Both the position numbers and the translations under genes were made by a program. This document shows, one piece after another, positions 24,521-63,148 of a stretch of DNA of 64,000 nt. This stretch comes from Polaribacter sp. SA4-12 (lineage in GTDB: Bacteria > Bacteroidota > Bacteroidia > Flavobacteriales > Flavobacteriaceae). The first letter of the stretch is position 1, and the number at the start of each line of letters is the position of its first letter. The notes under the pieces are model-generated. The model did no database searches. It was not told the origin of the DNA and saw only the letters and a program-made list of their open reading frames with translations. Location of the stretch: positions 3,329,501 through 3,393,500 of the forward strand of contig NZ_CP019334.1 in NCBI RefSeq assembly GCF_002163675.1, in the 5' to 3' direction.

Positions 24521-24550
24521 TTGGTTTACCAAATTGGTTTACCAAAGATA
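24521..24550 (-). promoter_or_regulatory. Operator array A: two 13-bp-spaced boxes plus -7 element, MFS-SDR operon
   Basis: TTGGTTTACCAA at 24521-24532 and 24534-24545. CAAAGATA (24543-24550) reads TATCTTTG on the minus strand and shares its TTG with the upstream box. Confidence 0.75.
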
Positions 24551-24608
24551 TGTTTTTTTCTGAAATAAAAAGGTAGTTTGTTTATTATTTCATAAAACGC
24601 TCTATAAT

Positions 24609-24632
24609 AGATTAAATAGCACTATTTAATCT
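24609..24632. promoter_or_regulatory. 24-bp perfect dyad between FadR-type regulator and MFS operator
   Basis: AGATTAAATAG and CTATTTAATCT, 11-bp arms around CA. It has no T run on either strand, so it is more likely a protein-binding site or weak RNA hairpin than a terminator. Confidence 0.3.
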
Positions 24633-24889
24633 CTAGTTTTATATAATATTGTTAAATGTAAGATGTGGAAATACACCAACTTTTTATAGTTCGATGAGAT
24701 TATTTATGAAATCGATGATTGATTTAAATAAATACATATTAATAGGAATAAGAGTTCCTAATCTTGCTTTTTAATTTTCTAAAAAGCGTTTTAATTTGCT
24801 GTATTTATTAAATGGATCCATAAAATATGCAACCTCGTTTTGATAAAGTTACTTTATGGGGTATTTAATTTGATATAAAAAAAGTGGTT

Positions 24890-25591
24890 TTAAATATTAT
24901 AGCAATAACTGTAGAGCTCTTTAAAATGCTCTTTCATTTTTTGTTTTGCTAATTTGGGGTTTCTTTCTTTAATTGCATCGAAGATAGCTTGATGATCTGT
25001 TATTCCTCTTTTAGTTAAACCTGCATCACAAACATGGTGCTTCTGAAAATTAGTGATTATTTCTGGGGTAATAATTAGCATGAAATTATTCATTGTACTA
25101 TTACCACTTGCTTTTGCTATTGCTAAATGAAAAAGTAAATCCTCTTGTATTGCATCTTCTCCATTATCTACTTTATCTTTATAGGCTGAGAGAGCTTCTT
25201 GCATTATAACTATATCTTCATCAGTTCTTCTTGTTGCAGCTAAACTAGCTGTCTTTAATTCTAATAAAATTCTTGTTTCTACTAAAGACTTAAAATCAGG
25301 GTCATCTAATCTTAAAATATCTTTAATCATACCATTCAGTGCAATAACACCAATGTTTGCAACAAAAGTTCCACTCTGTGGAATAGATTTTAATAGACCG
25401 TAAAATTCTAATCTTTGAATTGCTTCTCTAACATTACTTCTAGATACTTCAAACTTTTCAGAAAGCATTCTTTCTGAAGGAAGCTTATCTCCGGGTTCTA
25501 GATTCTTCAAATTTATTAGATCTTTAATTTTAGAAATAATATTTTTTTGAATACTAGAATTATCAGATTTTGTAAGTACCTCTATTTTCAT
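24890..25591 (-). CDS. GntR-family transcriptional regulator, FadR subfamily (regulator 1)
   Basis: A 233-residue protein. The N-terminal winged helix (GDKLPSERMLSEKFEVSRSNVREAIQRLE, about 34-62) has the GntR signature. A helical FCD effector domain follows, with the usual metal-site pattern: Asp in QEDLLFHLAIA and histidines in FHLAIA, DHQAIF and MKEHF. FadR-subfamily members bind carboxylate sugars such as uronates and are released from DNA by them. A large inverted repeat with GCACACATT half-sites lies upstream (25645-25688), and a related site precedes the next gene, which suggests autoregulation. It resembles the second regulator at 56447-57145. Confidence 0.9.
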   Translation of the reverse strand: MKIEVLTKSDNSSIQKNIISKIKDLINLKNLEPGDKLPSERMLSEKFEVSRSNVREAIQRLEFYGLLKSIPQSGTFVANIGVIALNGMIKDILRLDDPDFKSLVETRILLELKTASLAATRRTDEDIVIMQEALSAYKDKVDNGEDAIQEDLLFHLAIAKASGNSTMNNFMLIITPEIITNFQKHHVCDAGLTKRGITDHQAIFDAIKERNPKLAKQKMKEHFKELYSYCYNI

Positions 25592-25644
25592 TGTTTATAA
25601 TGTTATTTAATCAACTGCGAATATAAAAATTTATTTAATAATTA

Positions 25645-25688
25645 TGCACACATTATTAATAATGTAATCTAAATTAATAATGTGTGCA
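25645..25688. promoter_or_regulatory. Large inverted repeat upstream of regulator 1, putative autoregulatory site
   Basis: TGCACACATTATTAAT (25645-25660) and its exact complement (25673-25688), 12 bp apart. The left part also holds the 16-bp palindrome ACATTATTAATAATGT (25649-25664). It lies 54 bp upstream of the regulator start codon. Confidence 0.6.
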
Positions 25689-25813
25689 ATATATTTTTCC
25701 TTTTATTAAGGAGGTATATGTATTATCTCAATCAGTTAAAAATGGTAAAAAGAACATTACTAAAATTTATACCTGTGAGTTTTTATTTTTTTTAATAAAA
25801 ATGAACAGACCAT

Positions 25814-26695: not shown

Positions 26696-26728
26696 ATTTA
26701 AAATATTTTATTTAATGTTATAAGAATA

Positions 26729-26768
26729 GCACACATTACTAAAACTACATTGCTTTATCAATGTGTGC
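26729..26768. promoter_or_regulatory. GCACACATT/AATGTGTGC inverted pair upstream of the GarR-like gene
   Basis: GCACACATT (26729-26737) and AATGTGTGC (26760-26768) with 22 bp between. The same half-sites, 24 bp apart, precede regulator 1. This marks a second regulon distinct from the TTGGT-type boxes. Confidence 0.55.
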
Positions 26769-26797
26769 ATTCAATTTTTATATTGGTTTTTTTTATA

Positions 26798-28243: not shown

Positions 28244-28265
28244 AATATTAAATTTTAAAATCTAT

Positions 28266-29438: not shown

Positions 29439-29450
29439 AATTATGCGTTT

Positions 29451-31046: not shown

Positions 31047-31052
31047 AATTAA

Positions 31053-34283: not shown

Positions 34284-34388
34284 TAATTGTTTTGAATTGT
34301 TTTCTGTTTAAATACTTAATCTTAAGTATTTTGAATTTTATCTTTAAGATTAAATATCACTTTATTCAAGTTTAAAAAAATATATTAG

Positions 34389-34420
34389 CCAATAGAATTC
34401 TAGAAATAGAACTCTATTGG
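34389..34420 (-). other. Strong hairpin in the susC1 leader, touching operator B
   Basis: CCAATAGAATTCTA (34389-34402) pairs with 34407-34420 with one mismatch around GAAA. On the minus strand it lies just downstream of the boxes and is followed by a weak T tract, so it may be an attenuator or mRNA-stabilising hairpin. Confidence 0.45.
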
Positions 34421-34459
34421 TTAATTTAATTGGTTTACCAAATTGGTTTACCAAAAGTA
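34417..34459 (-). promoter_or_regulatory. Operator array B: two boxes plus one degenerate, -7 element, susC1 operon
   Basis: TTGGTTTACCAA at 34430-34441 and 34443-34454, and a decayed third unit TTGGTTAATTTA at 34417-34428, keeping the 13-bp period. CAAAAGTA (34452-34459) reads TACTTTTG on the minus strand. Confidence 0.75.
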
Positions 34460-34543
34460 TATATTTTTTTGGTATAAAAAAAAGATATGTTAATTAATTC
34501 ATAAAATCTCCCCTTATTGGGTTAAAGTTATCTTTTAATTTTA

Positions 34544-37252: not shown

Positions 37253-37282
37253 TTGGTTAACCAGATTGGTAGACCAAATATA
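37253..37282 (-). promoter_or_regulatory. Operator array C: two boxes plus -7 element, PL17-KdgF operon
   Basis: TTGGTTAACCAG (37253-37264) and TTGGTAGACCAA (37266-37277), 13-bp period. CAAATATA (37275-37282) reads TATATTTG on the minus strand. Confidence 0.75.
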
Positions 37283-38413: not shown

Positions 38414-38456
38414 TTGGCTCACCAATGTGGTTGACCAAATTGGTTTACCAAAAATA
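38414..38456 (-). promoter_or_regulatory. Operator array D: three boxes plus -7 element
   Basis: TTGGCTCACCAA (38414-38425), GTGGTTGACCAA (38427-38438) and TTGGTTTACCAA (38440-38451), exact 13-bp period. CAAAAATA (38449-38456) reads TATTTTTG on the minus strand. Confidence 0.75.
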
Positions 38457-43201: not shown

Positions 43202-43231
43202 TTGGTTTACCAATTTGGTTTACCAAATATA
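43202..43231 (-). promoter_or_regulatory. Operator array E: two perfect boxes plus -7 element, PL6-1; divergent from uxaC
   Basis: TTGGTTTACCAA at 43202-43213 and 43215-43226. CAAATATA (43224-43231) reads TATATTTG on the minus strand. It lies in the 261-bp divergent gap and might also affect uxaC, for which no clear plus-strand promoter is seen. Confidence 0.75.
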
Positions 43232-43420: not shown

Positions 43421-44824
43421 ATGAAGACTTTTTTAACTGAAGATTTTTTACTCCAAACAGATTTTGCAAAAAACTTATATCACAAATTTGCTAAAAAATT
43501 ACCAATTATAGATTATCACAATCATTTACCTTCAAATGAAATTGCAGCAGACAAACAATTTGATAATATTACACAAGCTTGGTTGTATGGAGATCATTAT
43601 AAATGGCGTGCAATGCGTGCTTTTGGTATTAATGAAAAATATATTACAGGTGATGCTTCAGACAAAGAAAAGTTTTTAAAATGGGCAGAAGTTGTTCCTT
43701 TTACAATTAGAAATCCGCTTTTTCATTGGACGCATTTAGAATTGAAAGCTTATTTTGGAATTGATGAAATTTTATCAGTAAAAAATGCTGAAGAAATATA
43801 TGATATAACATCCAAAATATTGCAAAAAAAAACACATTCTGCAAACGGTTTATTAAAATTGATGAATGTAGAATCTTTATGTACAACAGATGATCCTATA
43901 GATACATTAGAATATCATAATGCAATTCAAAAAGATCCTTCTAAAGTAAAAACTTTTCCAACTTTTAGACCAGATAAATCTATTGATGTTTCTAATGTTA
44001 AAACATTTAAAAATTACATTTCAATTTTAGGTAGCCTCTGTAAAGTAACGATTAATTCTTACCAAAAATATATAAAAATTTTAGAAGAAAGAGTCGATTT
44101 CTTTCATGAAAATGGTTGTAGATTATCTGATCATGGTTTTGAGCAAATGCCTTTTTATGATGGTGCAAAATATGATCTTTCCTTGCTATTCAATAAAGCA
44201 ACTTCTGGAATAAATTTAACAGAAGATGAAGTGTTGTTTTTTAAGGCAAAGACACTGGTATTTCTAGGGAGAATGTATCATCAAAAAGGTTGGACACAAC
44301 AGTTTCATTTGGGTGTAATTCGGAATAATAATAATAGATTATTGAAAGAGTTAGGTGTAGATACTGGCTTTGATTCGATGAGTGATACTTCTCAAATTAA
44401 AAATCTAAAAGGATTTTTTAATGCTTTAGATAATACGAATCAACTTTCAAAAACAATTGTTTACAATTTAAACCCTGCAGATAACGAAGTATTTGCAACA
44501 ATGGTTGGTAATTTTAATGATGGTACCATAAAAGGTAAAGTTCAGTTTGGTGCAGCTTGGTGGTTTTTAGACCAAAAAGATGGAATGGAAAAACAAATTA
44601 ACACACTTTCTAATCAGGGTTTATTAAGTTGTTTTGTAGGTATGTTAACAGATTCTAGAAGTTTTTTGTCTTTTCCAAGGCACGAATATTTTAGAAGAAT
44701 TTTATGTAACATTATTGGTACAGATGTAGCAAATGGTGAATTACCAAATGATGAAGCGTTTTTAGGAAAAATAGTAAGTGATATTTGTTATTATAATGCT
44801 AAAAACTATTTCAATTTTAAATAA
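43421..44824 (+). CDS. uxaC: Glucuronate isomerase
   Basis: A 467-residue member of the uronate isomerase family (amidohydrolase-like TIM barrel), which interconverts D-glucuronate and D-fructuronate, or D-galacturonate and D-tagaturonate. Features are the N-terminal metal motif IDYHNHLP, ITQAWLYGDHYKWRAMRAFG, FHWTHLELKAYFGI, CTTDDPIDTLEYH, QFHLGVIRNNN and the C-terminal LTDSRSFLSFPRHEYFRRILC. An oxidoreductase gene starts 11 bp after the stop. In an alginate locus it may serve saturated uronates that lyases do not turn into DEH, or other uronan side chains. Confidence 0.93.
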   Translation: MKTFLTEDFLLQTDFAKNLYHKFAKKLPIIDYHNHLPSNEIAADKQFDNITQAWLYGDHYKWRAMRAFGINEKYITGDASDKEKFLKWAEVVPFTIRNPLFHWTHLELKAYFGIDEILSVKNAEEIYDITSKILQKKTHSANGLLKLMNVESLCTTDDPIDTLEYHNAIQKDPSKVKTFPTFRPDKSIDVSNVKTFKNYISILGSLCKVTINSYQKYIKILEERVDFFHENGCRLSDHGFEQMPFYDGAKYDLSLLFNKATSGINLTEDEVLFFKAKTLVFLGRMYHQKGWTQQFHLGVIRNNNNRLLKELGVDTGFDSMSDTSQIKNLKGFFNALDNTNQLSKTIVYNLNPADNEVFATMVGNFNDGTIKGKVQFGAAWWFLDQKDGMEKQINTLSNQGLLSCFVGMLTDSRSFLSFPRHEYFRRILCNIIGTDVANGELPNDEAFLGKIVSDICYYNAKNYFNFK

Positions 44825-44835
44825 ATCTATCTAAT

Positions 44836-45801
44836 ATGAAAACAATTAAATGGGGAATAATTGGTTGTGGTGATGTTGCTGAAATAAAAAGTGGACCTGC
44901 TTTTCAAAAAGTAGAAAACTCAGAATTAATAGCAGTGATGAGAAGAAATGCTGCAAAAGCAAAAGATTTTGCAGAAAGACATCAGGTTCCTTTTTGGTAT
45001 AATTCTGTTGATGCATTATTAGAAAACCCAGAAATTAATGCAGTTTATATTGCAACACCTCCTTCGACCCATTTAGAAATAGTGAAAAAATGTTTAAAAT
45101 CAAAAAAGTTTATTTATCTCGAAAAGCCGATAACTTTAAATTTTTATGAAGCTGAAGAATTAAATGAAATTGTTACAAATAATGATAAAGTCGTTGTTGC
45201 TCATTATAGAAGAAAACTACCTGTTTTCTTAAAAGTAAAAGCGTTAATTAAAGAAAATAGAATAGGAGATATCAGGTTTGTAGATATTCAAATTTTACAA
45301 TCGAAAGAAAATAATATTATTACTAAAACAGATGACAATTGGCGTTTGAAACCAGAAATTTCTGGAGGTGGTTATTTTCATGATATTGCGCCACATCAAA
45401 TCGATTTAATGTATTATTATTTTGGTGAAATTAAAAACGCTAAAGGTTTTTCTACATCAACTTTAAATAACAATGTTGATGATATTGTAAATGGAATTAT
45501 AGAATTTAAAAACGGAATTCAATTTAGAGGAATCTGGAATTTTAATACTTCTGATAATGAAGTAAAAGATGAGTGTAAAATATATGGAGAAAATGGTACA
45601 ATTACATTTTCTTTTTATGGTGATAAGATAACTTTAACTACTAATTATGATGCCAAAGTTTTTCATTTTACGAACCCGATTCATGTGCAACAACCAATGA
45701 TAGAAAGTACAGTAAACTATTTTTTAGGTAAAGCTTCGAATCCTTGTGATATAGAAAAAGGAGTAACTGTTATGAGAATTTTAGAAACTTTTACAACTTA
45801 A
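44836..45801 (+). CDS. Gfo/Idh/MocA-family oxidoreductase
   Basis: A 321-residue NAD(P)-dependent sugar oxidoreductase. The Rossmann motif is WGIIGCGDVAE (6-16), followed by YIATPPSTHLEIV, the family EKP motif (YLEKPITL, about 95-102) and the catalytic-region GGYFHDIAPHQIDLMYYYFG with the His usual for the family. It sits 11 bp after uxaC and converges with a lyase-like gene. It probably oxidises or reduces a uronate or aldonate intermediate of the same pathway; the substrate cannot be read from sequence. Confidence 0.85.
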   Translation: MKTIKWGIIGCGDVAEIKSGPAFQKVENSELIAVMRRNAAKAKDFAERHQVPFWYNSVDALLENPEINAVYIATPPSTHLEIVKKCLKSKKFIYLEKPITLNFYEAEELNEIVTNNDKVVVAHYRRKLPVFLKVKALIKENRIGDIRFVDIQILQSKENNIITKTDDNWRLKPEISGGGYFHDIAPHQIDLMYYYFGEIKNAKGFSTSTLNNNVDDIVNGIIEFKNGIQFRGIWNFNTSDNEVKDECKIYGENGTITFSFYGDKITLTTNYDAKVFHFTNPIHVQQPMIESTVNYFLGKASNPCDIEKGVTVMRILETFTT

Positions 45802-46890: not shown

Positions 46891-46920
46891 TTGGTAAACC
46901 AATTTGGTTTCCCAAATATA
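46891..46920 (-). promoter_or_regulatory. Operator array F: two boxes plus -7 element, jelly-roll lyase-like gene
   Basis: TTGGTAAACCAA (46891-46902) and TTGGTTTCCCAA (46904-46915), 13-bp period. CAAATATA (46913-46920) reads TATATTTG on the minus strand. Confidence 0.75.
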
Positions 46921-47685: not shown

Positions 47686-47741
47686 TATATTTGGTTTTCC
47701 AGTTTGGTAAACCAGTTTGGGAAACCAGTTCGGGAAACCAG
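47686..47741 (+). promoter_or_regulatory. Operator array G: four boxes plus -7 element, susC2-susD2 operon
   Basis: TATATTTG (47686-47693) runs into four units beginning at 47691, 47704, 47717 and 47730: TTGGTTTTCCAG, TTGGTAAACCAG, TTGGGAAACCAG and TCGGGAAACCAG. This is the longest array of the window and the only one clearly serving a plus-strand operon. Confidence 0.78.
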
Positions 47742-52847: not shown

Positions 52848-52882
52848 TTACATGAGGTTTTTGTTCAATCTAACTTTATAAA

Positions 52883-53950
52883 TCAATCTTTAACAGGCAA
52901 TGAACCAGAGCTTACTTTAGCTTCTTTAAACCAAACTTCCGCATAACATCCATTTGCATATTGTTTTTTGATATCTCCATTATATGTTTCAGCCCCAGTA
53001 TACCAAACGATATTATCTTCTGGTTTTTTTCCATTAGTTTGATTGTATGCTCCTTGTTTAAAATAATTCATTTCCCCAGCATACCCATTTTCTCTTTCTA
53101 CACCATCACGACCTATTGCAGCATATAATGTTAATATTTGTTGAGGAATATCTGATTTTTTTGCAAATTCAGATTTCAATAAGTCTTTTGTGAATTTAAT
53201 AGTCTCATGACCTTTACTTGTGAAGGTTAGGTACATTATTCCTTTAAATACGTTAATTTCATAACTAAATTCCTCACCTAATTCAATACCGTTTTCTGGT
53301 TCTTTAGGGAATGTAGTTGGACTAGACCCAACAACTGACATATCATTTCCCCAAACTGCTGTTGAATAATCCCATCTTCCAGAGTTGTCATCACTTGCTG
53401 TATTAATTTCATAATTCCAAAAAATGGATCCTTTTTTATGTCCAGGAAACTTTTTATAAAATATTTTTATAGGTTCGTTTTCATGTCCTTCATCACTATG
53501 GATTTGTCCAACAACAACAGAATAGGAAGCTGCAACTCTTGCATCACCAGAAGTTGAAACTTGCATTACTTTTAGTGTACCCGTTAATTTACCACCAACT
53601 TCAGGTATCCAATGTTTTTTTTGTCCTAACTCAGTTCTTGTGTTACTAGAAGTTCTAGATGTAATACCAGAATTAGGCGTTTTGTATACTACCCAATCTG
53701 TTTTACCATCATTTGTAGTATAAAAGAAATCTTTATGTTCTGTGTTGGCTAATTCTTTATAACTAGTTCCATCTCCACACAGGATACTCCATTCGTTCAT
53801 AAATGGAATAACTTGACTTGGGTACGTTATAGTAGATTTTGATTCTTTACTAGTAGCCTTTTTAGTTGAGTTTGAACAACCGGATAGTAATAAAACAATA
53901 CTAGCAAATAAAACATGCAGCAATAATGATTTTGTGATTTTTAGCTTCAT
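52883..53950 (-). CDS. PL7 alginate lyase, lipoprotein (PL7-1)
   Basis: A 355-residue lipoprotein (LLSGCSNS, Cys25) with the three PL7 signature strands: RTELGQ (105-110), GQIH (148-151) and YFKQGAYNQ (296-304). These supply the catalytic Arg, Gln/His and Tyr of the beta-jelly roll. The QIH form (Ile, not Val) is usually linked to activity on G-containing blocks. It is the last gene of the run from 60363 and a paralogue of PL7-2, from which it is separated by an SDR and an RbsD-type gene. Confidence 0.92.
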   Translation of the reverse strand: MKLKITKSLLLHVLFASIVLLLSGCSNSTKKATSKESKSTITYPSQVIPFMNEWSILCGDGTSYKELANTEHKDFFYTTNDGKTDWVVYKTPNSGITSRTSSNTRTELGQKKHWIPEVGGKLTGTLKVMQVSTSGDARVAASYSVVVGQIHSDEGHENEPIKIFYKKFPGHKKGSIFWNYEINTASDDNSGRWDYSTAVWGNDMSVVGSSPTTFPKEPENGIELGEEFSYEINVFKGIMYLTFTSKGHETIKFTKDLLKSEFAKKSDIPQQILTLYAAIGRDGVERENGYAGEMNYFKQGAYNQTNGKKPEDNIVWYTGAETYNGDIKKQYANGCYAEVWFKEAKVSSGSLPVKD

Positions 53951-54001
53951 TTTGTTTTTTATATTTAAATTACTTATTATTAAAAAGTTGTATTTAATTT
54001 T

Positions 54002-54436
54002 TTAAAAGGCACTTTCTTCAGCCATTTTTACTACACCGACAGTTAATATTAAATTAGCGAATCGACGCTGTTCACCTGTTTGAATAATTAATGTTGTATT
54101 GGGGTTTCTTATTTTATCGTAAAAAGACCAACGTTCCATAGTATCCCATGTTACGTCTCCCAGTAATTTTTTATAAGCATCGTGTATTTCTGCGTTTGCT
54201 TCAGCGGGCTTTTCCATAACAATAGCACCTTGAATGGGGCAAACTTCTAGTATGCCTTCTAATACTGTGAGAGCATCTAAAAGTCCTGGTCTAAAGTTGA
54301 GGTGGACTGTTGTTGAGTTAGGGCCATTCATTGCGCCAACGGGTAAATTTCCGTCAGCAATAACAACTTGTGCAAAATGACCAGAACGGCCAAGAGCTTC
54401 CATAATTGTTGGGTGTATTACTTTAGTTTTTAACAT
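54002..54436 (-). CDS. RbsD/FucU-family sugar mutarotase
   Basis: A 144-residue product from the ATG at 54436 (MLKTKVIHPT). The family motif EALGRSGHFAQVVIADGN carries the catalytic-site His20 and Asp28, and MERWSFYDKI lies toward the C-terminus. RbsD and FucU convert pyranose and furanose or anomeric forms of ribose and fucose. In a lyase operon the probable substrate is a uronate or deoxy-uronate released by the lyases, which is unusual. A hairpin (54472-54499) separates it from the upstream SDR. Confidence 0.85.
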   Translation of the reverse strand: MLKTKVIHPTIMEALGRSGHFAQVVIADGNLPVGAMNGPNSTTVHLNFRPGLLDALTVLEGILEVCPIQGAIVMEKPAEANAEIHDAYKKLLGDVTWDTMERWSFYDKIRNPNTTLIIQTGEQRRFANLILTVGVVKMAEESAF

Positions 54437-54471
54437 AAGAATGTCCTTTAAAATAGTTGATTTAAAATAAA

Positions 54472-54499
54472 ACACTAGAAGTTATTTATCTTCTAGTGT
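54472..54499 (-). terminator. Hairpin between SDR and RbsD-type gene, possible attenuator
   Basis: ACACTAGAAG / CTTCTAGTGT arms (54472-54481 with 54490-54499), followed on the minus strand by TTTATTTT. It sits inside the run, so it may reduce rather than end transcription. Confidence 0.5.
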
Positions 54500-54557
54500 T
54501 TCTTAACTTACTAGGGGTTAATTTTATTTAGCTCAATGTAAATTCAAATGGAATTTA

Positions 54558-55325
54558 TTACATATTGTAAACGCCACCATTGATGTCTAAAGTAGCACCA
54601 GTTATAAAACCATCATATTCTGATGCTAAGTATAATACAGCACGTGCTACATCAGCAGCATTACCAGCTCGTTGAATTGGAATACCTGCTATTGTTTCAT
54701 TCGCTGATTCTTTTGTTGTATGTGTATTGTGAAAAGAAGTACCAAGTATTAGACCTGGAGCAACAGCATTAACTCTTGTTCCTTGAGGTCCTAGTTCTGT
54801 AGATAATGCACGTGTAAATGTTAAAATAGCTCCTTTACTAGTAGCATAAACTAGAGATCCTGGATGACCTCCTTTACGCCCTGCAAGTGATGCTAAATTA
54901 ACAATACTACTGTTTTCATTTTTTGCTAAATAAGGAGCAGCAGCTTTTGTCACAAACATCATAGAAGTCATATTGATATCCATTACTTTATGCCAGAATT
55001 CTGCTTCCATTTCGTTTAACATTCTACGAGCTACAAGTGAACCTGCGTTGTTGATTAGTATGTCTATGCCACCAAGTTCTGCTATAGTTTTCTCTACCAT
55101 TGCATTTGCATCAGCTTCTTTTGTTAAATCTCCACTAATAGCAACTGCTTTTTGTCCTTTGGTAATTGCGTATTCAACCAATTGCTTTGCGGTATCTGCA
55201 CTTGAAAAATAGTGGATGGCAACATTAGCTCCGTTGTCTATAAAATGTTTCGTGATAGATTCACCAATTCCTTGAGCTCCTGCCGTTATAAGTACGTTTT
55301 TACCTTTTAATTTATTATGATTCAT
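54558..55325 (-). CDS. Short-chain dehydrogenase in the PL7 operon
   Basis: A 255-residue classical SDR with TAGAQGIG (14-21), NNAG, and the catalytic Ser/Tyr/Lys in LASLAG and YATSKGA. The C-terminal GITGATLDINGG-like end (FITGATLDINGG) is typical. It overlaps functionally with the SDR at 22270 but is not a close copy. It lies between two PL7 lyases, 9 bp after PL7-2, so it probably reduces a uronate product such as DEH or an isomer. Substrate inferred. Confidence 0.83.
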   Translation of the reverse strand: MNHNKLKGKNVLITAGAQGIGESITKHFIDNGANVAIHYFSSADTAKQLVEYAITKGQKAVAISGDLTKEADANAMVEKTIAELGGIDILINNAGSLVARRMLNEMEAEFWHKVMDINMTSMMFVTKAAAPYLAKNENSSIVNLASLAGRKGGHPGSLVYATSKGAILTFTRALSTELGPQGTRVNAVAPGLILGTSFHNTHTTKESANETIAGIPIQRAGNAADVARAVLYLASEYDGFITGATLDINGGVYNM

Positions 55326-55334
55326 ATTAGTATG

Positions 55335-56429
55335 TTATTTATGATCGTTTTTATTGAAATAACCTTGATTAGAAACTGCAGCTTTACTTATCGAAATACT
55401 AGCTTTTTTAAACCAAACTTCTGCATAATTTCCGTCTGCATATTGTTTTTGAATATCTCCGCCATGCATTTCAGCACCAGAACACCAATTTTTATTTACT
55501 TCAGGAGATTTTCCATTTGTTTGGTTGTAACAACCCAATTTAAAGAAACAACCTTCGCCAGTATATGCTTCTTTTCGTTCTACACCATCTTGACCAATTG
55601 GCACAAATAACTTTTGGGTTTGTTCAGGAATATCTGCTTTTGTAGAAAATTCTGATTCGATTAAGTTTTTTGTGAATGTTTTGGTTTCATGACCTTTACT
55701 TGTAAACTTTAAGTTCATAATACCATCTTTCACCTCAATTTCATAACTAAATTCTTCGCCTAATTCAATTCCGTCTTTTGGTTCGCTCGGAGGTGTATTT
55801 GCATCAGGTCCAACTACAGAAAAATCATTACCCCAAACGGCCAAAGAATAATCCCATCTACCAGAATTATCATCGCCGGCAGTATTAATTTCGTAATGCC
55901 AAAAAACAGATCCTTTGGTATGACCAGGATATATTTTGTAGAATATTTTTAGTGGTTCGTTTTCGTGTTTATCCGCACTATGAATCTGACCTACAACCAC
56001 AGCATGAGACGCTGCAACAGTTTTATCACCAGTTGAAGAAACATTCATTACTTTAAGTGTTGCGGTTAATTTATCATTTGCAGTTTCAGGATACCATTTT
56101 TTAATTTGCCCTAATTCTGTTCTTGTATTGTTTGAAGTTCCATGTGTACTACCTGCATTTGGTGCTTTAAAAACAACCCATTCTCCATTGGTATCACTTT
56201 CGGTATAAAAGAAATCTTTATTTTCAAAATTATTAGCAATTCCTGCATTTTCACCGTTTCCTAAAACTAATTTCCAGTGATCAAAAAACGGAATAACATC
56301 ACTTGCGTAAACTGTCTTTTTTGTTTCTGTTTTATCCGATTTTTTTACAGTTTTGTTACAGCTATTAATGATCAGAAAAATACAGATGATTAAGAGTGTT
56401 GATGCCGATTTTATTATTTTTTTATTCAT
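55335..56429 (-). CDS. PL7 alginate lyase, lipoprotein (PL7-2)
   Basis: A 364-residue lipoprotein (LIINSCNK, Cys24) closely related to PL7-1. Signature strands are RTELGQ (103-108), GQIH (147-150) and FFKLGCYNQ (about 297-305), where the first tyrosine of YFK is Phe but the catalytic second Tyr remains. It carries a short extra C-terminal tail (SKAAVSNQGYFNKNDHK). The gene follows regulator 2 by 17 bp. The pair probably arose by duplication with insertion or retention of the SDR and RbsD-type genes between. Confidence 0.92.
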   Translation of the reverse strand: MNKKIIKSASTLLIICIFLIINSCNKTVKKSDKTETKKTVYASDVIPFFDHWKLVLGNGENAGIANNFENKDFFYTESDTNGEWVVFKAPNAGSTHGTSNNTRTELGQIKKWYPETANDKLTATLKVMNVSSTGDKTVAASHAVVVGQIHSADKHENEPLKIFYKIYPGHTKGSVFWHYEINTAGDDNSGRWDYSLAVWGNDFSVVGPDANTPPSEPKDGIELGEEFSYEIEVKDGIMNLKFTSKGHETKTFTKNLIESEFSTKADIPEQTQKLFVPIGQDGVERKEAYTGEGCFFKLGCYNQTNGKSPEVNKNWCSGAEMHGGDIQKQYADGNYAEVWFKKASISISKAAVSNQGYFNKNDHK

Positions 56430-56446
56430 TTTATTTTTGATTTATT

Positions 56447-57145
56447 TTATTGTTTTTCTATATGTTTTGATAATTTAAAGAAGTGTTCATGCATCATTTT
56501 TGTTGCAAGTTCAGGGTCTTTAGAGGCTATTGCAAAATAAATATCTTCGTGCTTTTTTATTTCAGAATTAACTCCATCACCTTCACAAACTTTATCTCTA
56601 TCGTAATTGGCTAGAATTGGTGGTGTAATTAAAAGCATTAATGTTATCAGAGTGGTATTCTTACTTGCCTTAGCGATGGCTAAATGAAATAACAGATCTT
56701 CTTCTAAATAATCTTTACCATCAGTAATTCTATCTTTAAAGGCATTTAAAGCTTCTTTTATTCGTTTTAAATCTTCTTCTGATCTTCTTTCTGAAGCAAG
56801 ACAAACTGTTTTTAATTCTAATGATATTCTTGTTTCCACCAATTCATCAAAAGATGGAGTGTCAAGAGAAATAATTTCATCAACCATACCATTAAATCCA
56901 GTCAATCCTATTGCTAATAAAGTTCCACTTTGAGACATTGATTTTACAACACCATAAAATTCTAGCTTTCTGATGGCTTCTCTAATATGGTTCCTTTTTA
57001 CATCAAATTTTTCTGACATAATTCTCTCAGATGGTAATTTATCTCCACGCTCTAAGTTTTTAGCGTTAATTAAATCACGAATCTTACAAATTACATCATT
57101 CTGTACTATTTTATTTGAATTTGTATCTATTAAGCTTATTTTCAT
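56447..57145 (-). CDS. GntR-family transcriptional regulator, FadR subfamily (regulator 2)
   Basis: A 232-residue paralogue of regulator 1. The winged helix GDKLPSERIMSEKFDVKRNHIREAIRKLE has the same spacing, but the recognition helix differs (KRNHIR against SRSNVR), so the two should read different operators. An FCD domain follows (EEDLLFHLAIAKASKN, then KHEDIYFAIASKDPE, then MMHEHF). It is embedded in the GntK/Gnd run under a TTGGGTACCCAA-type array, with only 49 bp before it. A uronate or aldonate is the likely effector. It is a candidate for binding the tandem boxes. Confidence 0.88.
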   Translation of the reverse strand: MKISLIDTNSNKIVQNDVICKIRDLINAKNLERGDKLPSERIMSEKFDVKRNHIREAIRKLEFYGVVKSMSQSGTLLAIGLTGFNGMVDEIISLDTPSFDELVETRISLELKTVCLASERRSEEDLKRIKEALNAFKDRITDGKDYLEEDLLFHLAIAKASKNTTLITLMLLITPPILANYDRDKVCEGDGVNSEIKKHEDIYFAIASKDPELATKMMHEHFFKLSKHIEKQ

Positions 57146-57194
57146 GCAATTGATTATTCTATGTTATTACAGAATTTGTGTGTCTAAGTTTTGT

Positions 57195-58469
57195 TTAAAA
57201 ATATTCTAAAAGTGCTATGATGCCATTATACGAAATCACTAAAGAAAAGAACAAAGCAGCATACAGACCAATATAAACACCAAGACTTGTTTTGAAATCT
57301 TTCATTACTTTTTTACTGCTTAACATTAATATAATTCCAAGGATTACTATTGGTAATACAAATACATTAAATACTTGTGATAAAATCTGAATTTCAATAG
57401 GATTTGCGCCAAATGCAGGTCCAATTAAAGCAACCAAACAAGCAATAGCGGTTATGACTCTAAACTGACGCGAATTAGTGTCTAACTCACCAGATTGATA
57501 ATCTGCAATCAATAAAGGAGCAATTAATAAACAAGGGAATATAGAGGATAAACCAGCACTTAATGCTCCAAAAAAGAAAATAGAAACGGCCCATTTTCCT
57601 GCAACTGGTTCTAAAGTATTTGCCATATCTAATACTTGCGTAACTTCTTTACCGTCATAAAACAAAGCACCAGCAGCTACTGCCATTATAACTCCACTAA
57701 TTACAAAAATTAAAACTGCAGCTGTAATAGAATCTTTTTTCTGTTGATCTAAATTTTTAATCGTCCATCCTTTTCCTTTTACAAATAATGGTCTTGACAA
57801 GAATGTAGCAGATGCCATGGTTGTACCAACGAAAGCAGCAACCAACATTTTACCACCAGGAATATCTGGAATAGTTGGTATTAATCCTTTCACTACATCT
57901 AATGGCAATGGTTGTACAAAGCATAATGATAATAAAAATGAAAACCCCATTAAGGTTACAAAAATAACTAGTATTTTTTCGAAGAAAGTATATTTACCTA
58001 CCAACATTAATAAGTAAAAAGTAACAATTATTATTATTGCCGTTATTAAAACGGTTTCATATTTATATGCACTTAATCCTTCAAAATTTACTGCTAGTAT
58101 TTCAAAAATTATATTTGATGAAATTCCTAAAATACCCATTAGTGAATTCCATTGTCCAAACGTGATTCCAACAATAATTAAAATTGCTAAAATTTTACCG
58201 TATTTTAAATGTTTTTTAAATCCGTAAAGCGCAGTTTCACCTGTTAATAGGGCATAATTTCCGTAAGCAAACATTAAAATTCCAGAGAAAGTGCAACTTA
58301 ATAATAGCACCCATAATAGTTGCATATTAAATTTGCTTCCTGCAACAATCATAGACGTTACACTACCTGTACCTATGGTATAACCAATAGCAAAAATACC
58401 TGGCCCAAAGCCTAAAATTAAGGCAATGATTTTTTTGAGAAATGATTTTTTCTGTGTTGATGTATCCAT
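57195..58469 (-). CDS. NRAMP-fold membrane transporter lacking the metal-binding motifs
   Basis: A 424-residue, 11-helix protein of the NRAMP (LeuT-fold) family: GFGPGIFAIGYTIGTGSVTS in helix 1 and VGTTMASATFLSRP in helix 6. Metal-carrying members have DPGN in helix 1 and MPH in helix 6; here these are IGTG (32-35) and about ASA (219-221). The transition-metal site is therefore gone. Co-transcription with a gluconokinase/6-phosphogluconate dehydrogenase and PL7 lyases suggests uptake of a sugar acid instead. The substrate is a hypothesis, although the motif loss is visible directly. Confidence 0.8.
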   Translation of the reverse strand: MDTSTQKKSFLKKIIALILGFGPGIFAIGYTIGTGSVTSMIVAGSKFNMQLLWVLLLSCTFSGILMFAYGNYALLTGETALYGFKKHLKYGKILAILIIVGITFGQWNSLMGILGISSNIIFEILAVNFEGLSAYKYETVLITAIIIIVTFYLLMLVGKYTFFEKILVIFVTLMGFSFLLSLCFVQPLPLDVVKGLIPTIPDIPGGKMLVAAFVGTTMASATFLSRPLFVKGKGWTIKNLDQQKKDSITAAVLIFVISGVIMAVAAGALFYDGKEVTQVLDMANTLEPVAGKWAVSIFFFGALSAGLSSIFPCLLIAPLLIADYQSGELDTNSRQFRVITAIACLVALIGPAFGANPIEIQILSQVFNVFVLPIVILGIILMLSSKKVMKDFKTSLGVYIGLYAALFFSLVISYNGIIALLEYF

Positions 58470-58500
58470 AATATCAGTTAGTTGATGGTTTAGTTAATTT

Positions 58501-60363
58501 TTAGTTCCAGTTGGTATGATGACTTTTTCCAGAAGTATCATCTAGTCTTTGATAGGTGTGAGCTCCAAAATAATCTCGTTGTGCTTGTATGATATTTGCG
58601 GAAGCATATGCAGTTGTAATTCCGTTTAAAAATTGAAGTGCTTCTGCCAAAGCAGGTGTCGTTATATCATTAAGAACACATTCTGAGATCACCTTTTTTG
58701 CTGATGGTTTGTATTGATTAACAATAGCGATTAATTTTGGATTCGTTAAAATGTTGGTTGTATTTTTAAATACTTCTACTAAATCTTCCATTAAAGTAGA
58801 TCTAATAATACAGCCGTTTGTCCAAATTCTAGCAATTTTACTTAAATTCAAATTCCATGAAGACTTAATAGAAGCTTCAGAAATTAATTTAAATCCTTGA
58901 TAATGATTTATAATTCTAGCAAACTGATAAGCCTCTAAAACGTCATTTGTAGTTATGTTTGCTTTCGAATTATTTACTTCTTTAAAACTTTTATTTAATA
59001 GAATACGTTCTTCCTTGTAAAAAGAAATATAACGTGAAAATAATGCAGAAGTAATTAATGTACTTGGTACACCTAATTCCGCAGAAGCAATTGCTGTCCA
59101 ATTTCCTGTACCTTTATTACCAGCTTTATCTAATATTTTATTTACCAACCAATCGTTACCTTCTTTCTTTCTAAAAATAGAAGTTGTTATTTCTAACAAA
59201 TAACTGTTTGCAGATTCTTTCCAAGATTCTAAAGTGTTTGCAATTTCATCTGGGTTTTGTCCTAAGTTTTCTAAAATAGTTGCTACTTCTGCTAATAATT
59301 GCATTTCTACATACTCAACACCATTGTGTACCATTTTTATAAATTGACCACTTCCTTCAGGACCAACATAAGTGCAACAAGGCAAACCATTTTTGTCTTT
59401 AGCTGAAATAGTTTCAAGAAATGGTTGTACACTTTTATAAGCTTCAATATCTCCACTTGGCATTATAGACGGTCCTTTTAATGCGCCTTCTTCACCACCA
59501 GAAACTCCTGTTCCTATAAAATGAATGTTTTTTGTTTTTAAATATTCGAAACGTTCTTTGGTTTTCTTATAGTTAGAATTTCCTCCATCTATTAAGATAT
59601 CGTTTTCAGATAAATGAGGCAGCAAGTCTTCAATAACATAATCTATGGTTTTTCCTGCGTTAACCATAAGCATAATTCTTCTTGGTTGTTGCAATGAGTT
59701 TACAAAAGATGAAATATCATCAAAAGCTTCTGAATTTGATAACTCTTTGTGTTCTGCTTTAAAGTTTTTGGCTATATTTTCTTCTACACCATCAACATGT
59801 CTATTAAACATAGAAATTTTAAACCCATTATTGGCTAAATTTCTACATAAACTTTTTCCCATAACTCCTAGTCCAAATAATCCAAATTCTGAGGTATTCA
59901 TTACTTCTTTTTTTATAATTTTTATAATTTTTTTAGGTGATAAACTAATATCAATTTCAATACATTTTTTAGGTTCTTCCAGAATATCAAATTGAGATTT
60001 TAATAATTCAGAACTCATAAAATGCCCTTTACGAGCATTAATTCTTTCTTTAATTTGTTCAAAAGAACCATTAAGGAAAACCCATTTTGAACTACATTTT
60101 ATATTCGTGTTTAAAATACCACGATAACTTTCCTTTAATGCCGAACAAACGATTACACAACCTTTATTAGATAATTGTATTATAGCTAATTTATTTAATG
60201 TTTGTAACCACCCTAATCTATCATCATCATTTAATGCTTGTCCGCTAGACATTTTTGCAATATTTTCTTCAGGATGAAAATCGTCTCCGTCAAAAAAAGG
60301 AATGTTCAATTCTTGTGCAAGTAGTTTTCCGATAGTGCTTTTTCCACAACCAGAAACTCCCAT
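58501..60363 (-). CDS. Gluconokinase / 6-phosphogluconate dehydrogenase fusion protein
   Basis: A 620-residue fusion. Residues 1-152 are a GntK-type gluconokinase (P-loop GVSGCGKST, then DGDDFHPEENIAKMSSGQAL and CSALKESYR). Residues 155-620 are a full decarboxylating 6-phosphogluconate dehydrogenase (GLFGLGVMGKSLCRN at 161-175, GTGVSGGEEGALKGPSIMPSG, IKMVHNGVEYVEMQL, KAGNKGTGNW). Together they turn gluconate into ribulose 5-phosphate. The first ATG falls directly at the P-loop. In-frame codons upstream spell the missing strand (KIEAQVIYI) without ATG, so translation may begin earlier at a non-standard codon. It is the first gene of a seven-gene run. Confidence 0.88.
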   Translation of the reverse strand: MGVSGCGKSTIGKLLAQELNIPFFDGDDFHPEENIAKMSSGQALNDDDRLGWLQTLNKLAIIQLSNKGCVIVCSALKESYRGILNTNIKCSSKWVFLNGSFEQIKERINARKGHFMSSELLKSQFDILEEPKKCIEIDISLSPKKIIKIIKKEVMNTSEFGLFGLGVMGKSLCRNLANNGFKISMFNRHVDGVEENIAKNFKAEHKELSNSEAFDDISSFVNSLQQPRRIMLMVNAGKTIDYVIEDLLPHLSENDILIDGGNSNYKKTKERFEYLKTKNIHFIGTGVSGGEEGALKGPSIMPSGDIEAYKSVQPFLETISAKDKNGLPCCTYVGPEGSGQFIKMVHNGVEYVEMQLLAEVATILENLGQNPDEIANTLESWKESANSYLLEITTSIFRKKEGNDWLVNKILDKAGNKGTGNWTAIASAELGVPSTLITSALFSRYISFYKEERILLNKSFKEVNNSKANITTNDVLEAYQFARIINHYQGFKLISEASIKSSWNLNLSKIARIWTNGCIIRSTLMEDLVEVFKNTTNILTNPKLIAIVNQYKPSAKKVISECVLNDITTPALAEALQFLNGITTAYASANIIQAQRDYFGAHTYQRLDDTSGKSHHTNWN

Positions 60364-60401
60364 AATATATATAACTTGTGCTTCGATTTTGTTTGATTTT
60401 A

Positions 60402-60444
60402 TTGGGTACCCAAATTGGGTAACCAGATTGGGTACCCAAATATA
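60402..60444 (-). promoter_or_regulatory. Operator array H: three boxes plus -7 element, GntK/Gnd run
   Basis: TTGGGTACCCAA (60402-60413), TTGGGTAACCAG (60415-60426) and TTGGGTACCCAA (60428-60439), 13-bp period. CAAATATA (60437-60444) reads TATATTTG on the minus strand. The GGG/CCC variant is shared with part of array G only. Confidence 0.75.
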
Positions 60445-60621
60445 GGTTTTTTAAATTAAAATATTACTAGAGAATATTTTAATTTTATAAAAAATGTTAA
60501 TAAATTTAAGTTTACTCTTGAAAAACGAGAGGTTTTAAATAATTTTCGTTTAAAAAGGATAAGGTTTTAACAATGAGATCTTTAGTAAATAGCCTGATTG
60601 ATGATTTAAAATAACTAAAAG

Positions 60622-60655
60622 AAAAAACCCATTACTTTTAAAGTAATGGGTTTTT
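60622..60655 (-). terminator. Terminator after PL6-2
   Basis: AAAACCCATTACTT / AAGTAATGGGTTTT stem around TTA, with A and T runs on both sides, so it can act on both strands. It is 21 bp past the PL6-2 stop. Confidence 0.85.
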
Positions 60656-60675
60656 ATTTTTTTTAAAATTTCGTT

Positions 60676-63057
60676 TTATTGATTCAAGCCAATATTTTCA
60701 ATTTCATTATTTTCTTTTAATAAGATTGATTTCTTACTTGGAATAAAAAGTGTTTTATCTTCCCATTTTGGATTCTTGTAGAAGATGTTTTCTTTTTTGG
60801 CGTTTTTGCTAATTTTAACAAAACCATTGTTATATATTAAGCAATTTGAGATAAAGTTATTTTTACCTTTTAAATCTACAGGAGCTTTTACTTTATAACT
60901 ATTTTCAAAAACTGTATTTGTTATCTCAACATTATGAATTCCTTCTGTTCTAATAATTTTTCCTTTTTCTTGATTATAGACATTACTAAAAACACAATTC
61001 TTTACAATTAAATTTCCTCCTGGTATTTCTGGGGTAATTACTTTTCTAAAATAATTTACAGCAGCTTCTTCAATATTCTTAAAAACGGTGTTTTCTAAAA
61101 TAATAGTATTAGCATTATATTCCCCCATTAAATCTTTATCATAAGATAAATTTAAACCTCTGTAATTGTCTTCAAATCTAGAGTTTATGAAACTTAATGT
61201 ATCTGCCTTTGTACCGTTATAGGCTTTAAAAACACTACCACCATTTTTATTTGTAAAGTTTTGAAAAGTAATATTGTCTACAAATAAGTTATAAAGTCCA
61301 GCTTCTTTTTTGTCTGGAGATACAATTGCATACTTTAAATTAGAATTAACCCCATCTAAAATAGCATTACTAATATTTAATGTGATTCCTTCATTTACTC
61401 TAAACAGATAATCAATTGGCTTCTCTAAACCTTTCTTAGCCATTATTATTGTTGCACCACCTTTGTCTCCAATAATAGTAATGTTTTTACCGACTTTAAT
61501 TTTCTTTTCTAAAAGATATTCTCCAGTTTTTAAATTTAATACAGATCCTGGAGAAGCTTTATCGATTGCTTTTCTTAAAGTTTCTAAACCTGGTTCTACA
61601 GTAATATTTGCTGGTTTTATGATAGGAGCAATAATATCTACTTTCCAACCTGGACCAGCTCTTAGTTTTAATGCTTTTGGTAGTTTTTTCGAATCTAAGT
61701 TAAAAGCCCCAGCATTAAATACTTGTCTTGCTGTATTAGTAATGTCTTTCTCGTAACTCTTATCATTCTTGGTAACAGCTAATAAATCGCTATTATTTGC
61801 TGTAGGAATAAGGAATGAAGCTATTTCTTTAAAATCTATTTTTGTAGGTGAAAAACCTTTTAAAGCTTCAGGAATAGGAGTATCTATATAATTATTATTA
61901 AAAGTAATTCCAGAAGTATCATCAACAAAAATAATATTTTTTGAATTCTTGTTGTTATAGATTAAGTTATTAGAAAAATTAACATTTTTAGGTGCTAATG
62001 TTTTTTCATCATCTTTTCCTTCTCCAAAAGAAATTGGTCCAGAATTAATAATTGTATTATTTTGAATGTCTACGTTTTTTACTTGGTCGTATCTGTTTAA
62101 AGGTGAATTTGGCACTCCATTCATAACAACAATTGATCCTCTGTAACCATCTCCAGTTAATCCTATTAAAAAGTTATTTCTTACAATATGACCTTGGTTT
62201 ATAACTCTAATTCCTCCTGTTTTAGAAACTCCATTTCCTATAAAAACATTTCGTTCTACTAATGCATTATTTCCATGTCTAAGTGTTAAAGTCCCTTTAC
62301 TTTCAACAAATAAATTGTCTCTAAAAATATTATCACAAGATTTGTTTGATACAATTTCTATTTCTCCATCACAATTTGCAAAAACATTTCTTTCTACTAA
62401 TGTTTTAGATGATTTCTTTGAGTTGGCACTTGTACCAATTCTAATTGTTTCTCCACCATTTTTACCTAAATCTGGTCTTGGCCCAAAAAGGTTATTGTCT
62501 ATTCTATGATTGTTTTCTAAATGTTCTTCTCCTTTTAACCAAACGACTAAAGTTGTTCCTTCGCTTATTTTACCTGTGAAATTATTGTGATCTACTCTGT
62601 TGTTTTTACCCCAAAGATCTACCCAATGGTCTTTTAATTCTGTTTCTGTATTATAATAGGATATAGTTGAATTGGTAAAACGACAATTGTTTGCAAATGT
62701 TTTTGAGTCTTTTCTAAATTGTACAACAGATTTATATTCTGTATTTCCGTCTTTAAACCAAAGACCTCCTACAATTATATACTCTCCATAAATATTTAAA
62801 GTAGAATTACCCGAAATAATTACTTTACCAGCAGTTTCTGCCTTAATTAAAATAGGATTTCCTTCTTCTCCTTTTCCATAAGCGTTTAATTTAACATCTT
62901 TCCAAACGCCATTTTTTAGTACAATAACAGCACCAGCTTTTGCAGATTTAATTGCGTTATTATACTCTGTAATGTTTGAGACTAAAATCTCTTGAGCATT
63001 TGTTTTAGATATTGTAAAAGCTAAAATTGCTACAAGTGTTAATACTATTTTTTTCAT
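60676..63057 (-). CDS. PL6 alginate lyase with two beta-helix domains (PL6-2)
   Basis: A 793-residue protein with a type I signal peptide (ISKTNAQ), so secreted rather than lipid-anchored. The first beta-helix carries the PL6 landmarks VVWLKGEEH (catalytic Lys about 171), NNLFGPRPDLGKNGGETIRIG (about 184-204) and LRHGNNAL (catalytic Arg about 257). The second beta-helix begins near residue 485 (LETLRKAIDKASPGSVLNL). It shares this two-domain plan with PL6-1 but the match at the active strands is closer to the canonical family. Its own operator (I) and terminator make it a single-gene unit. Confidence 0.92.
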   Translation of the reverse strand: MKKIVLTLVAILAFTISKTNAQEILVSNITEYNNAIKSAKAGAVIVLKNGVWKDVKLNAYGKGEEGNPILIKAETAGKVIISGNSTLNIYGEYIIVGGLWFKDGNTEYKSVVQFRKDSKTFANNCRFTNSTISYYNTETELKDHWVDLWGKNNRVDHNNFTGKISEGTTLVVWLKGEEHLENNHRIDNNLFGPRPDLGKNGGETIRIGTSANSKKSSKTLVERNVFANCDGEIEIVSNKSCDNIFRDNLFVESKGTLTLRHGNNALVERNVFIGNGVSKTGGIRVINQGHIVRNNFLIGLTGDGYRGSIVVMNGVPNSPLNRYDQVKNVDIQNNTIINSGPISFGEGKDDEKTLAPKNVNFSNNLIYNNKNSKNIIFVDDTSGITFNNNYIDTPIPEALKGFSPTKIDFKEIASFLIPTANNSDLLAVTKNDKSYEKDITNTARQVFNAGAFNLDSKKLPKALKLRAGPGWKVDIIAPIIKPANITVEPGLETLRKAIDKASPGSVLNLKTGEYLLEKKIKVGKNITIIGDKGGATIIMAKKGLEKPIDYLFRVNEGITLNISNAILDGVNSNLKYAIVSPDKKEAGLYNLFVDNITFQNFTNKNGGSVFKAYNGTKADTLSFINSRFEDNYRGLNLSYDKDLMGEYNANTIILENTVFKNIEEAAVNYFRKVITPEIPGGNLIVKNCVFSNVYNQEKGKIIRTEGIHNVEITNTVFENSYKVKAPVDLKGKNNFISNCLIYNNGFVKISKNAKKENIFYKNPKWEDKTLFIPSKKSILLKENNEIENIGLNQ

Positions 63058-63118
63058 AAAAGAGAATGTAATATTGTTTTTTATTTAATACTTAATCAAA
63101 AAGAAAACCAAAATTTAA

Positions 63119-63148
63119 TTGGTTAACCAATTTGGTTAACCAAATGTA
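63119..63148 (-). promoter_or_regulatory. Operator array I: two perfect boxes plus -7 element, PL6-2
   Basis: TTGGTTAACCAA at 63119-63130 and 63132-63143. CAAATGTA (63141-63148) reads TACATTTG on the minus strand. Confidence 0.75.

Follow-up and report, generated by a model that had tools for sequence, protein, structure and literature searches.

Which DNA signals coordinate the alginate genes of the flavobacterium Polaribacter sp. SA4-12, and which proteins read them? To our knowledge, little is established on operator-level control of polysaccharide utilization loci (PULs) in Bacteroidota. We address the question in a 64-kb stretch of the genome (contig NZ_CP019334.1, positions 3,329,501 to 3,393,500; hereafter the window), which holds nine arrays, A to I, of boxes resembling TTGGTnnACCAA in a 13-bp register. 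The arrays are probably compound operators of an AusR-type alginate regulon, on which dimers of the regulator GntR1 would be aligned from the -7 promoter box and a paralogue, GntR2, would read a second spelling, TTGGGnnCCCAA. This reading is built on genome sequences, in which we find the period of the arrays, their register on the -7 box, their gene targets, their co-occurrence with GntR1, the link between period and regulator lineage, and the box letter that accompanies the paralogue. L and G numbers below are our labels for loci and genomes.

Array anatomy and promoter register

All nine arrays lie where a preliminary description of the window had placed them. Of their 23 units, 21 lie within two mismatches of TTGGTnnACCAA and two have three mismatches (the decayed first unit of array B and the last unit of array G). 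In the window, 12 pairs of boxes stand exactly 13 bp apart, whereas 50 Markov-1 random sequences gave a mean of 0.02 such pairs and never more than 1; the joint pattern of -7 box, unit 1, and unit 2, with up to three mismatches, has 15 matches against none in 100 shuffles. Box composition varies among arrays: array H is TTGGGTACCCAA-like and array G is TTGGnnnnCCAG-like.

The arrays have a fixed position relative to the promoter. The Bacteroidota -7 consensus is reported as TAnnTTTG (PMC9723704), and each of the nine window arrays is fused to such a box, whose last letters fall within unit 1. We extended the comparison to 90 arrays from the window and 40 further loci; 61 of these have one clear gene direction and 29 are ambiguous. 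Among the former, TAnnT occupies positions -5 to -1 of the upstream end in 57 arrays and the equivalent positions of the other end in 3; among the latter, 28 carry TAnnT at exactly one end. A TTG-like -33 element sits at -27 to -25, approximately 19 bp upstream (T in 55, T in 49, and G in 30 of the 61). Since the arrays start in the -7 box, they run downstream from it over the expected transcription start. The preliminary description had missed this register.

Within the arrays, the unit nearest the -7 box is the best preserved. Unit 1 is almost invariant, first units average 0.18 and 0.33 mismatches and later units 0.43-1.15, and all 61 distinct oriented arrays have either A or T as linker base. 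The box centers of two-unit arrays show no significant mirror symmetry (8/28 versus 7.0 expected). In three-unit arrays the outer centers mirror each other in 15/33, versus 8.1 by shuffle (p 0.0002, kinship ignored).

Two regulators, two spellings, and a lineage-linked period

GntR1 (24890..25591, minus strand) is the proposed reader of TTGGTnnACCAA. It is an AusR-like protein of the FadR type, with a GntR helix-turn-helix and an FCD domain; PF00392 and PF07729 score above cut-off in both GntR1 and GntR2. Alongside the regulator stand SusCD, lyases, an MFS transporter, and an SDR enzyme, the context of an alginate PUL. The box fits the palindromic TKGT...ACMA consensus of the FadR subfamily (PMC4494728). 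The preliminary description had compared it with UxuR/ExuR-type boxes, an assignment that we do not retain: the NCBIfam UxuR model gives 78.6 bits against a cut-off of 442, the ExuR model gives 69 against 396, and the GT-AC spacing of 2 nt fits UxuR and not ExuR (3 nt). What remains of the likeness is membership of the FadR subfamily and the GT-nn-AC form that UxuR sites share with the boxes described here (PMC4494728).

Across the family, genomes with arrays also have the regulator. We searched 299 family genomes for exact box pairs with a free gap of 0-30 bp and, separately, for GntR1 (E<=1e-40). Pairs occur in 42 genomes, GntR1 matches in 74, and all 42 array genomes are among these 74 (Fisher 2.7e-31, kinship ignored). 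Thirty-two genomes have GntR1 and no exact pair; 16 of their loci were examined (L207-L222), of which 12 hold degenerate arrays by a search at 13 bp only and two more on closer look. Within the genus, all 19 array genomes that are at least 90% complete fall among the 20 with a GntR1 match; the sole match in G400, 52% identical, corresponds to GntR2. This co-occurrence strongly supports a FadR-type GntR as reader of the boxes, as the preliminary description had supposed.

The predicted structure is compatible with this role. The GntR1 model has a mean pLDDT of 81.9, with residues 1-9 disordered. In a Foldseek search of the PDB its closest counterparts are GntR structures of the FadR type, namely those of a streptococcal GntR, of NanR, and of DhdR with DNA. 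Full-length TM-scores of about 0.5 make the domain packing of the model unreliable. D151, H155, H200, and H222 are invariant in 31 aligned proteins; we take them to be the metal-site set of FCD domains (Asp and three His), typical of metal-dependent sugar-acid pockets, and the site is putative here.

The spacing of the boxes is conserved in relatives. The free-gap search yielded 63 forward matches, of which 51 are 25 bases long and 12 are 38 (lengths read by eye). Only these two lengths occur, which means a spacing of 13 bp, or of 26 bp over a weaker middle unit. The period proposed for the window is thus kept in relatives by all 63 exact pairs; a reversed control matched 1/299 genomes. A genus search at fixed 13-bp spacing, which carries no information on the period itself, found pairs within one mismatch in 25/58 genomes (reversed control 0/58).

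Outside the family, the spacing differs. A wide scan of named genomes with gaps of 0-28 bp returned at least 117 stretches; the counts that follow are among the matches listed. The 122 pairs comprise 55 at gap 1, 24 at gap 3, 15 at gap 4, 11 at gap 14, and 17 at others. In the 80 titled rows, gaps 1 and 14 belong mostly to Flavobacteriaceae, and gaps 3 and 4 mainly to Saprospiraceae, Sphingobacteriaceae, Cyclobacteriaceae, and Chitinophagaceae, with a few in other phyla. Letters of the -7 box adjoin one or both ends of 45/55 gap-1, 11/24 gap-3, and 12/15 gap-4 pairs, and 25 of the 39 gap-3 and gap-4 pairs have a GntR1-like gene (38-53% identical) nearby. In a tree of 71 GntR proteins, 25 from gap-3 and gap-4 lineages group together with support of 100/99; their period is 16 in 12, 15 in 10, something else in three, and 13 in none. 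All 39 labelled rows on the Flavobacteriaceae side have a period of 13, a label taken from free-gap pairs in 21 and from 13-bp-only searches in 18; seven rows of the tree carry no assigned period. By sequence, the period tracks regulator lineage: 13 bp in Flavobacteriaceae, mostly 15-16 bp in other Bacteroidota.

The scan also gave two minor finds. An alphaproteobacterium (L091:5193-5268) holds three copies of TTGGTTTACCAA, one every 32 bp, as part of a longer direct repeat, unlike the 13-bp arrays; in two Streptomyces genomes (L099:6491 and L136:7027), pairs of TTGGTATACCAA spaced at 15 bp have a distant GntR gene (22-23% identical) nearby.

GntR2 (56447..57145, minus strand), a paralogue 52% identical to GntR1, is the proposed reader of TTGGGnnCCCAA. 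Orthologues occur in 17/166 genus genomes, the present one included, and in G002 and G353. An array stands directly before the GntR2 operon in 17/19 GntR2 loci. We counted spellings only in arrays with a -7 box, keeping copies and ignoring kinship. A perfect TTGGGnnCCCAA unit is present in 16 of the 17 arrays before GntR2 operons, and L231 holds half of one; it is present in 0/20 other arrays of GntR2 loci and in 0/153 arrays of loci without GntR2. By eye, 10 of the 17 are mixed arrays, in which a (T/C)TGGTnnACCA(A/G) unit is present as well at 13 bp. The recognition helix differs in step: it reads KRNH in all 15 GntR2 proteins that were parsed (out of 18) as well as in the GntR2 of the window, and mostly SRSN (24), SRGN (6), or TRSN (5) in GntR1, with SRSN in the window. 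These are presumably positions to which a survey of GntR motifs assigns DNA contacts (PMC4494728). GntR2 thus appears to have its own box letter, and array H to be read by both paralogues.

Proposed mechanism, rival readings, and precedents

What would such arrays do? Each begins within the -7 element (TAnnTTTG-GTnnACCAA) and continues downstream over the expected start in 13-bp steps. Without alginate, GntR1 dimers would sit side by side on neighboring units, cover the -7 box and the initially transcribed DNA, and in this stacked form block initiation; they would be released once a breakdown product binds the FCD domain. Where gntR1 lies in SusCD operons behind three-unit arrays, it would repress itself. 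GntR2 would add a second input at array H, and mixed arrays would seat both repressors as neighbors. Binding, repression, cooperativity, and the effector are what we infer from the sequence features.

If DNA is taken to make one turn per 10.5 bp, a 13-bp step rotates each dimer by approximately 86 degrees, a 15-16 bp step by about half a turn. The dimers wrapped around the DNA that the preliminary description proposed are likewise a hypothetical geometry. A quarter turn per dimer would bring four units to about one turn of a screw. We put forward, tentatively and with less than even confidence, a promoter code in which dimers form a short filament from the -7 box, one per 13 bp, with a step set by regulator lineage and with filaments shared by the paralogues. 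Two paralogues on mixed filaments, and half-and-half units suited to heterodimers, would allow one promoter to integrate two sugar-acid signals.

Other explanations account for parts of these data. Each box might be an independent operator, the tandem layout adding only local concentration or redundancy and no contact between dimers; the coexistence of two- and three-unit arrays, the variable quality of units, and the first unit being best on average all suit this idea. Independent boxes should drift in spacing, however, and across the 299 genomes no exact pair at gaps of 0-30 bp departs from 13 or 26 bp, while other lineages, among the matches listed, hold a narrow spacing of their own; we therefore consider it quite improbable. 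Somewhat less credit still goes to the everted pair ACCAA-W-TTGGT between units as the functional element, in which case a two-unit array would bind a single dimer and make two further half-site contacts. The constant A or T linker agrees with it, as does a statement in the GntR survey that an additional half-site, 7-12 nt away from the center, is frequent in sites of the FadR family (PMC4494728), a distance of about 9.5 nt in 13-bp arrays; yet sister lineages keep the 12-bp palindrome at 15-16 bp, where the everted spacing is broken, and the GntR2 letter change is symmetric within the unit.

A different PUL regulator could read the arrays, GntR1 being merely linked to the locus, and it is true that co-occurrence in one locus cannot separate neighbors. 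We find this hardly credible: the box is of FadR-family type, a GntR1-like gene accompanies 25/39 gap-3 and gap-4 pairs among the matches listed, the change of GntR paralogue tracks the change of box letter, and AusR is the reported Zobellia repressor. More serious, though still unlikely, is the proposal that GntR2 has no letter of its own and that TTGGGnnCCCAA is a relic of one ancestral promoter carried along with its operon. GntR2 operons are syntenic, and so their 17 arrays are not independent; the two other genera (G002, G353) may have gained the operon by transfer. A relic would not readily explain why the spelling persists as TTGGGTG, TTGGGTA, and TTGGGCA while moving among the first, second, and third unit, why the perfect unit is found in 0/173 arrays elsewhere, or why the recognition-helix residues differ consistently.

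Several observations weigh against the reading of the arrays as GntR1 and GntR2 operators. The link between GntR2 and TTGGG may reflect a single inherited event that the counts repeat; lone TTGGG/CCCAA half-sites are seen in 6/20 and 6/153 arrays that do not precede a GntR2 operon, and L332 and L333 carry a 70-71% identical GntR2 homologue with no array. Four of the 61 oriented arrays are not fused to a -7 box (L050, L064, L079, L084), and 17/122 exact pairs among the matches listed in the wide scan have other spacings. GntR1 is present in L219 and L220 with no array within the stretch examined, and in G462, of the same genus, with no array within one mismatch; three incomplete genus genomes (53, 67, and 83%) have arrays and no GntR1 match. 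Finally, the N-terminal part ahead of the alignment is 19 residues shorter in GntR1 than in NanR (GntR1 residue 17 corresponds to NanR residue 36), a protein in which this region matters, and with residues 1-9 of the GntR1 model disordered, any contact between dimers is hypothetical. Three NanR dimers bind adjacent repeats cooperatively, and this cooperativity requires a 32-residue N-terminal extension (PMC8012715).

NanR of E. coli is our nearest analogue for dimers on neighboring repeats, with its contact element largely absent here. The likeness lies in a FadR-type protein, several dimers on close repeats ((GGTATA)3), the importance of spacing, and a place among the closest folds; the difference is that NanR sites are direct GGTATA repeats and the present ones are 12-bp palindromes at 13 bp. 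Two further systems are relevant. The paralogous pair UxuR and ExuR is reported to heterodimerise (PMC12842492). DgoR, a FadR-type repressor, binds two close inverted repeats overlapping its own promoter; it is described for one operon, and the portion of the source consulted mentions no array code over multiple promoters (PMC12288454). The same limit applies to the GntR motif survey, in whose consulted portion we found no FadR-subfamily regulator from Bacteroidota (PMC4494728).

The alginate system closest to ours is that of Zobellia. A review names AusR as the GntR repressor of most alginate genes there (PMC8286568), and in Zobellia barbeyronii 13-bp arrays lie ahead of a PL17 gene. The AusR of Zobellia galactanivorans, the subject of Dudek et al. 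in 2020, is reportedly encoded in the PUL of the alginate utilisation system. Our comparison with AusR covers role and genomic context; what the present genomes document is the array period, the -7 fusion, the letters of the paralogues, and the mixed arrays. Literature searches with six box spellings as exact letters returned only papers unrelated by title, and topic searches returned none with arrays, although the primary AusR paper may contain the box or its repetition. AusR is a known alginate repressor; what we add is a proposed multi-site repression of FadR type with a fixed, lineage-specific period, the -7 fusion, and the two-paralogue letter code. A fixed and searchable operator grammar would make alginate regulons readable from sequence across marine flavobacteria; the 13-, 15-, and 16-bp arrays form a natural series for how dimer geometry sets operator spacing; and the paralogues offer a pair for studying how specificity changes, their mixed arrays serving as promoters with two natural inputs.

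Gene targets, genomic distribution, and a candidate antisense RNA

Every array of the window lies directly before a transcription unit, as first described. All but array G are on the minus strand. Array A (24521..24545; two units; -7 box 24543-24550, TATCTTTG) precedes the MFS transporter (24354-23062) and an SDR gene (23025-22270), both by Pfam. Array B (34417..34454; two units and one decayed; -7 box 34452-34459, TACTTTTG) precedes SusC (34283-31053), SusD, a SusE-like gene, a PKD lipoprotein, a HIBADH-type reductase, and GntR1, an operon whose extent is deduced from gene order. Array C (37253..37277; two units; -7 box 37275-37282, TATATTTG) serves a PL17-type lyase (37219-34943) and a KdgF-like cupin (34918-34544). 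Array D (38414..38451; three units; -7 box 38449-38456, TATTTTTG) serves a secreted type IX secretion system (T9SS) protein, with an open reading frame (ORF) of 38425-37460 from TTG and its first ATG downstream of the array.

Array E (43202..43226; two units; -7 box 43224-43231, TATATTTG) precedes a PL6 lyase (ORF 43213-40850) and a heparinase II/III-type lyase (40741-38528). It serves the PL6 gene and not the divergent uxaC at 43421, because its -7 box is on the minus strand; a -7 box was looked for on the uxaC side and none was found. The glucuronate isomerase gene uxaC and a Gfo/Idh/MocA oxidoreductase (43421..45801, plus strand) have no -7-fused array of their own. Array F (46891..46915; two units, one with a TTGGG half-site; -7 box 46913-46920, TATATTTG) serves a secreted lyase-like gene (ORF 46915-45809), and array G (47691..47741, plus strand; four units of the TTGGnnnnCCAG type; -7 box 47686-47693, TATATTTG) serves SusC2 (47769-50969) and SusD2 (50981-52309). 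Array H (60402..60439; three units; -7 box 60437-60444, TATATTTG) has two outer units of TTGGGTACCCAA, the GntR2 spelling, and a half-and-half middle unit, CTGGTTACCCAA; behind it lie a GntK-6PGD fusion, an Nramp-type transporter, GntR2, PL7, SDR, RbsD/FucU, and a further PL7. Array I (63119..63143; two units; -7 box 63141-63148, TACATTTG) precedes a PL6 lyase (63057-60676).

Pfam, supplemented by NCBIfam, finds in the window two PL6, two PL7, one PL17-type, and one heparinase II/III-type lyase, the KdgF-like cupin, two GntR+FCD regulators, MFS, SDRs, the HIBADH-type reductase, uxaC, Gfo/Idh, the GntK-6PGD fusion, and the Nramp-type transporter. The polysaccharide lyase (PL) family names, both SusCD pairs, and enzyme roles beyond domain names are presumed from resemblance and gene order. 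The preliminary description had spoken of one alginate/uronate regulon. The genes are indeed centered on alginate. A single regulon seems too simple given the two apparent GntR box letters and the mixed array H, and the lack of a -7-fused array at uxaC and the oxidoreductase speaks against the uronate part. The genes from the GntK-6PGD fusion through the Nramp-type transporter, GntR2, PL7, and SDR, often with RbsD/FucU, recur as a conserved alginate-linked operon (L318-L331; window 52883-60363), in which the Nramp-type transporter seems unusual.

Relatives place the arrays before the same genes. In 33/38 relative loci, one or more arrays stand before a gene homologous to one in the window. Unit number goes with the target: two units predominate before lyases (28 arrays, against 2 with three units) and three units before SusC (24 arrays, against 3 with two units), and in ten loci gntR1 follows SusCD behind a three-unit array. 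In the five loci without such a homologue, PL7 lyases (L055, L064), an Nramp-like gene (L074), and a secreted PKD protein (L079) lie behind the array, and L050 has a distant SusC homologue downstream of an array without -7 fusion.

In the whole genome (3.99 Mb, both strands, joined-box patterns), two joined boxes within two mismatches are confined to the window and to a second locus some 230 kb distant (3089129 and 3096909); two further places match at three mismatches (2004531, 2562101), and the reversed pattern gives one match per strand. Array H exceeds the mismatch limit of this pattern. A looser pattern recovers it and adds two places elsewhere at one mismatch (1237342, 2562102), with controls at up to two mismatches of 3 and 5 matches. 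Genome-wide, arrays are thus nearly exclusive to the alginate regulon. Neither an equal frequency before unrelated genes nor a loss of the period in relatives, the two outcomes that would have spoken against the preliminary description, was found. Single -7-fused boxes were considered as a wider regulon and rejected: of 11 exact matches in the genome, seven are inside arrays, and three of the other four were checked, all within open frames of 415-995 codons.

At the second locus, the array at 3096909 sits before a secreted PL6-like/BACON protein. The other (C1:3089129; L203:3129-3153) is a -7-fused two-unit array (TACATTTGG...), behind which no ORF of at least 100 aa precedes aat, about 205 bp downstream. 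A relic promoter, an aat leader, and a small RNA are candidates. A comparison with 30 genomes gave no full-length copy outside its own; 10/29 other genomes have short or partial matches (E<=0.001), the best 71% over 126 bases.

A conserved element lies in the SusC leader of relatives, downstream of the array and ahead of the SusC start. Its antisense strand shows a TAnnTTTG resembling a -7 box, a pair of hairpins, and a T-run terminator, and so presents a candidate antisense RNA of about 105 nt (estimated; L051:10058-10186, L061:9728-9856, L085:1583-1708, and 56 further family genomes). The strands were compared on 35 of 46 extracted stretches, 11 being dropped as reverse readings or unlike. 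In antisense, one hairpin pair reads U-G in 19 of the 35 and U-A in the other 16; in sense those 19 would be C-A. The consensus energy is -18.1 antisense versus -12.5 sense. An RNA model matches 59/299 family genomes, all among the 74 with a GntR1 match (lists compared by eye), with one copy in 55 and two in 4, and 25/38 relative loci. A search of six loci with SusC leaders against Rfam gave no match. The genome of the window has no match at E<=1e-4; the window holds one weak match (16152-16313, E 0.06). DonS-type RNAs of Bacteroides PULs are described as 78-128 nt long and antisense to a susC homologue (PMC7366714). The putative RNA resembles their description in position and differs in being tied to AusR-type alginate loci of Flavobacteriaceae.

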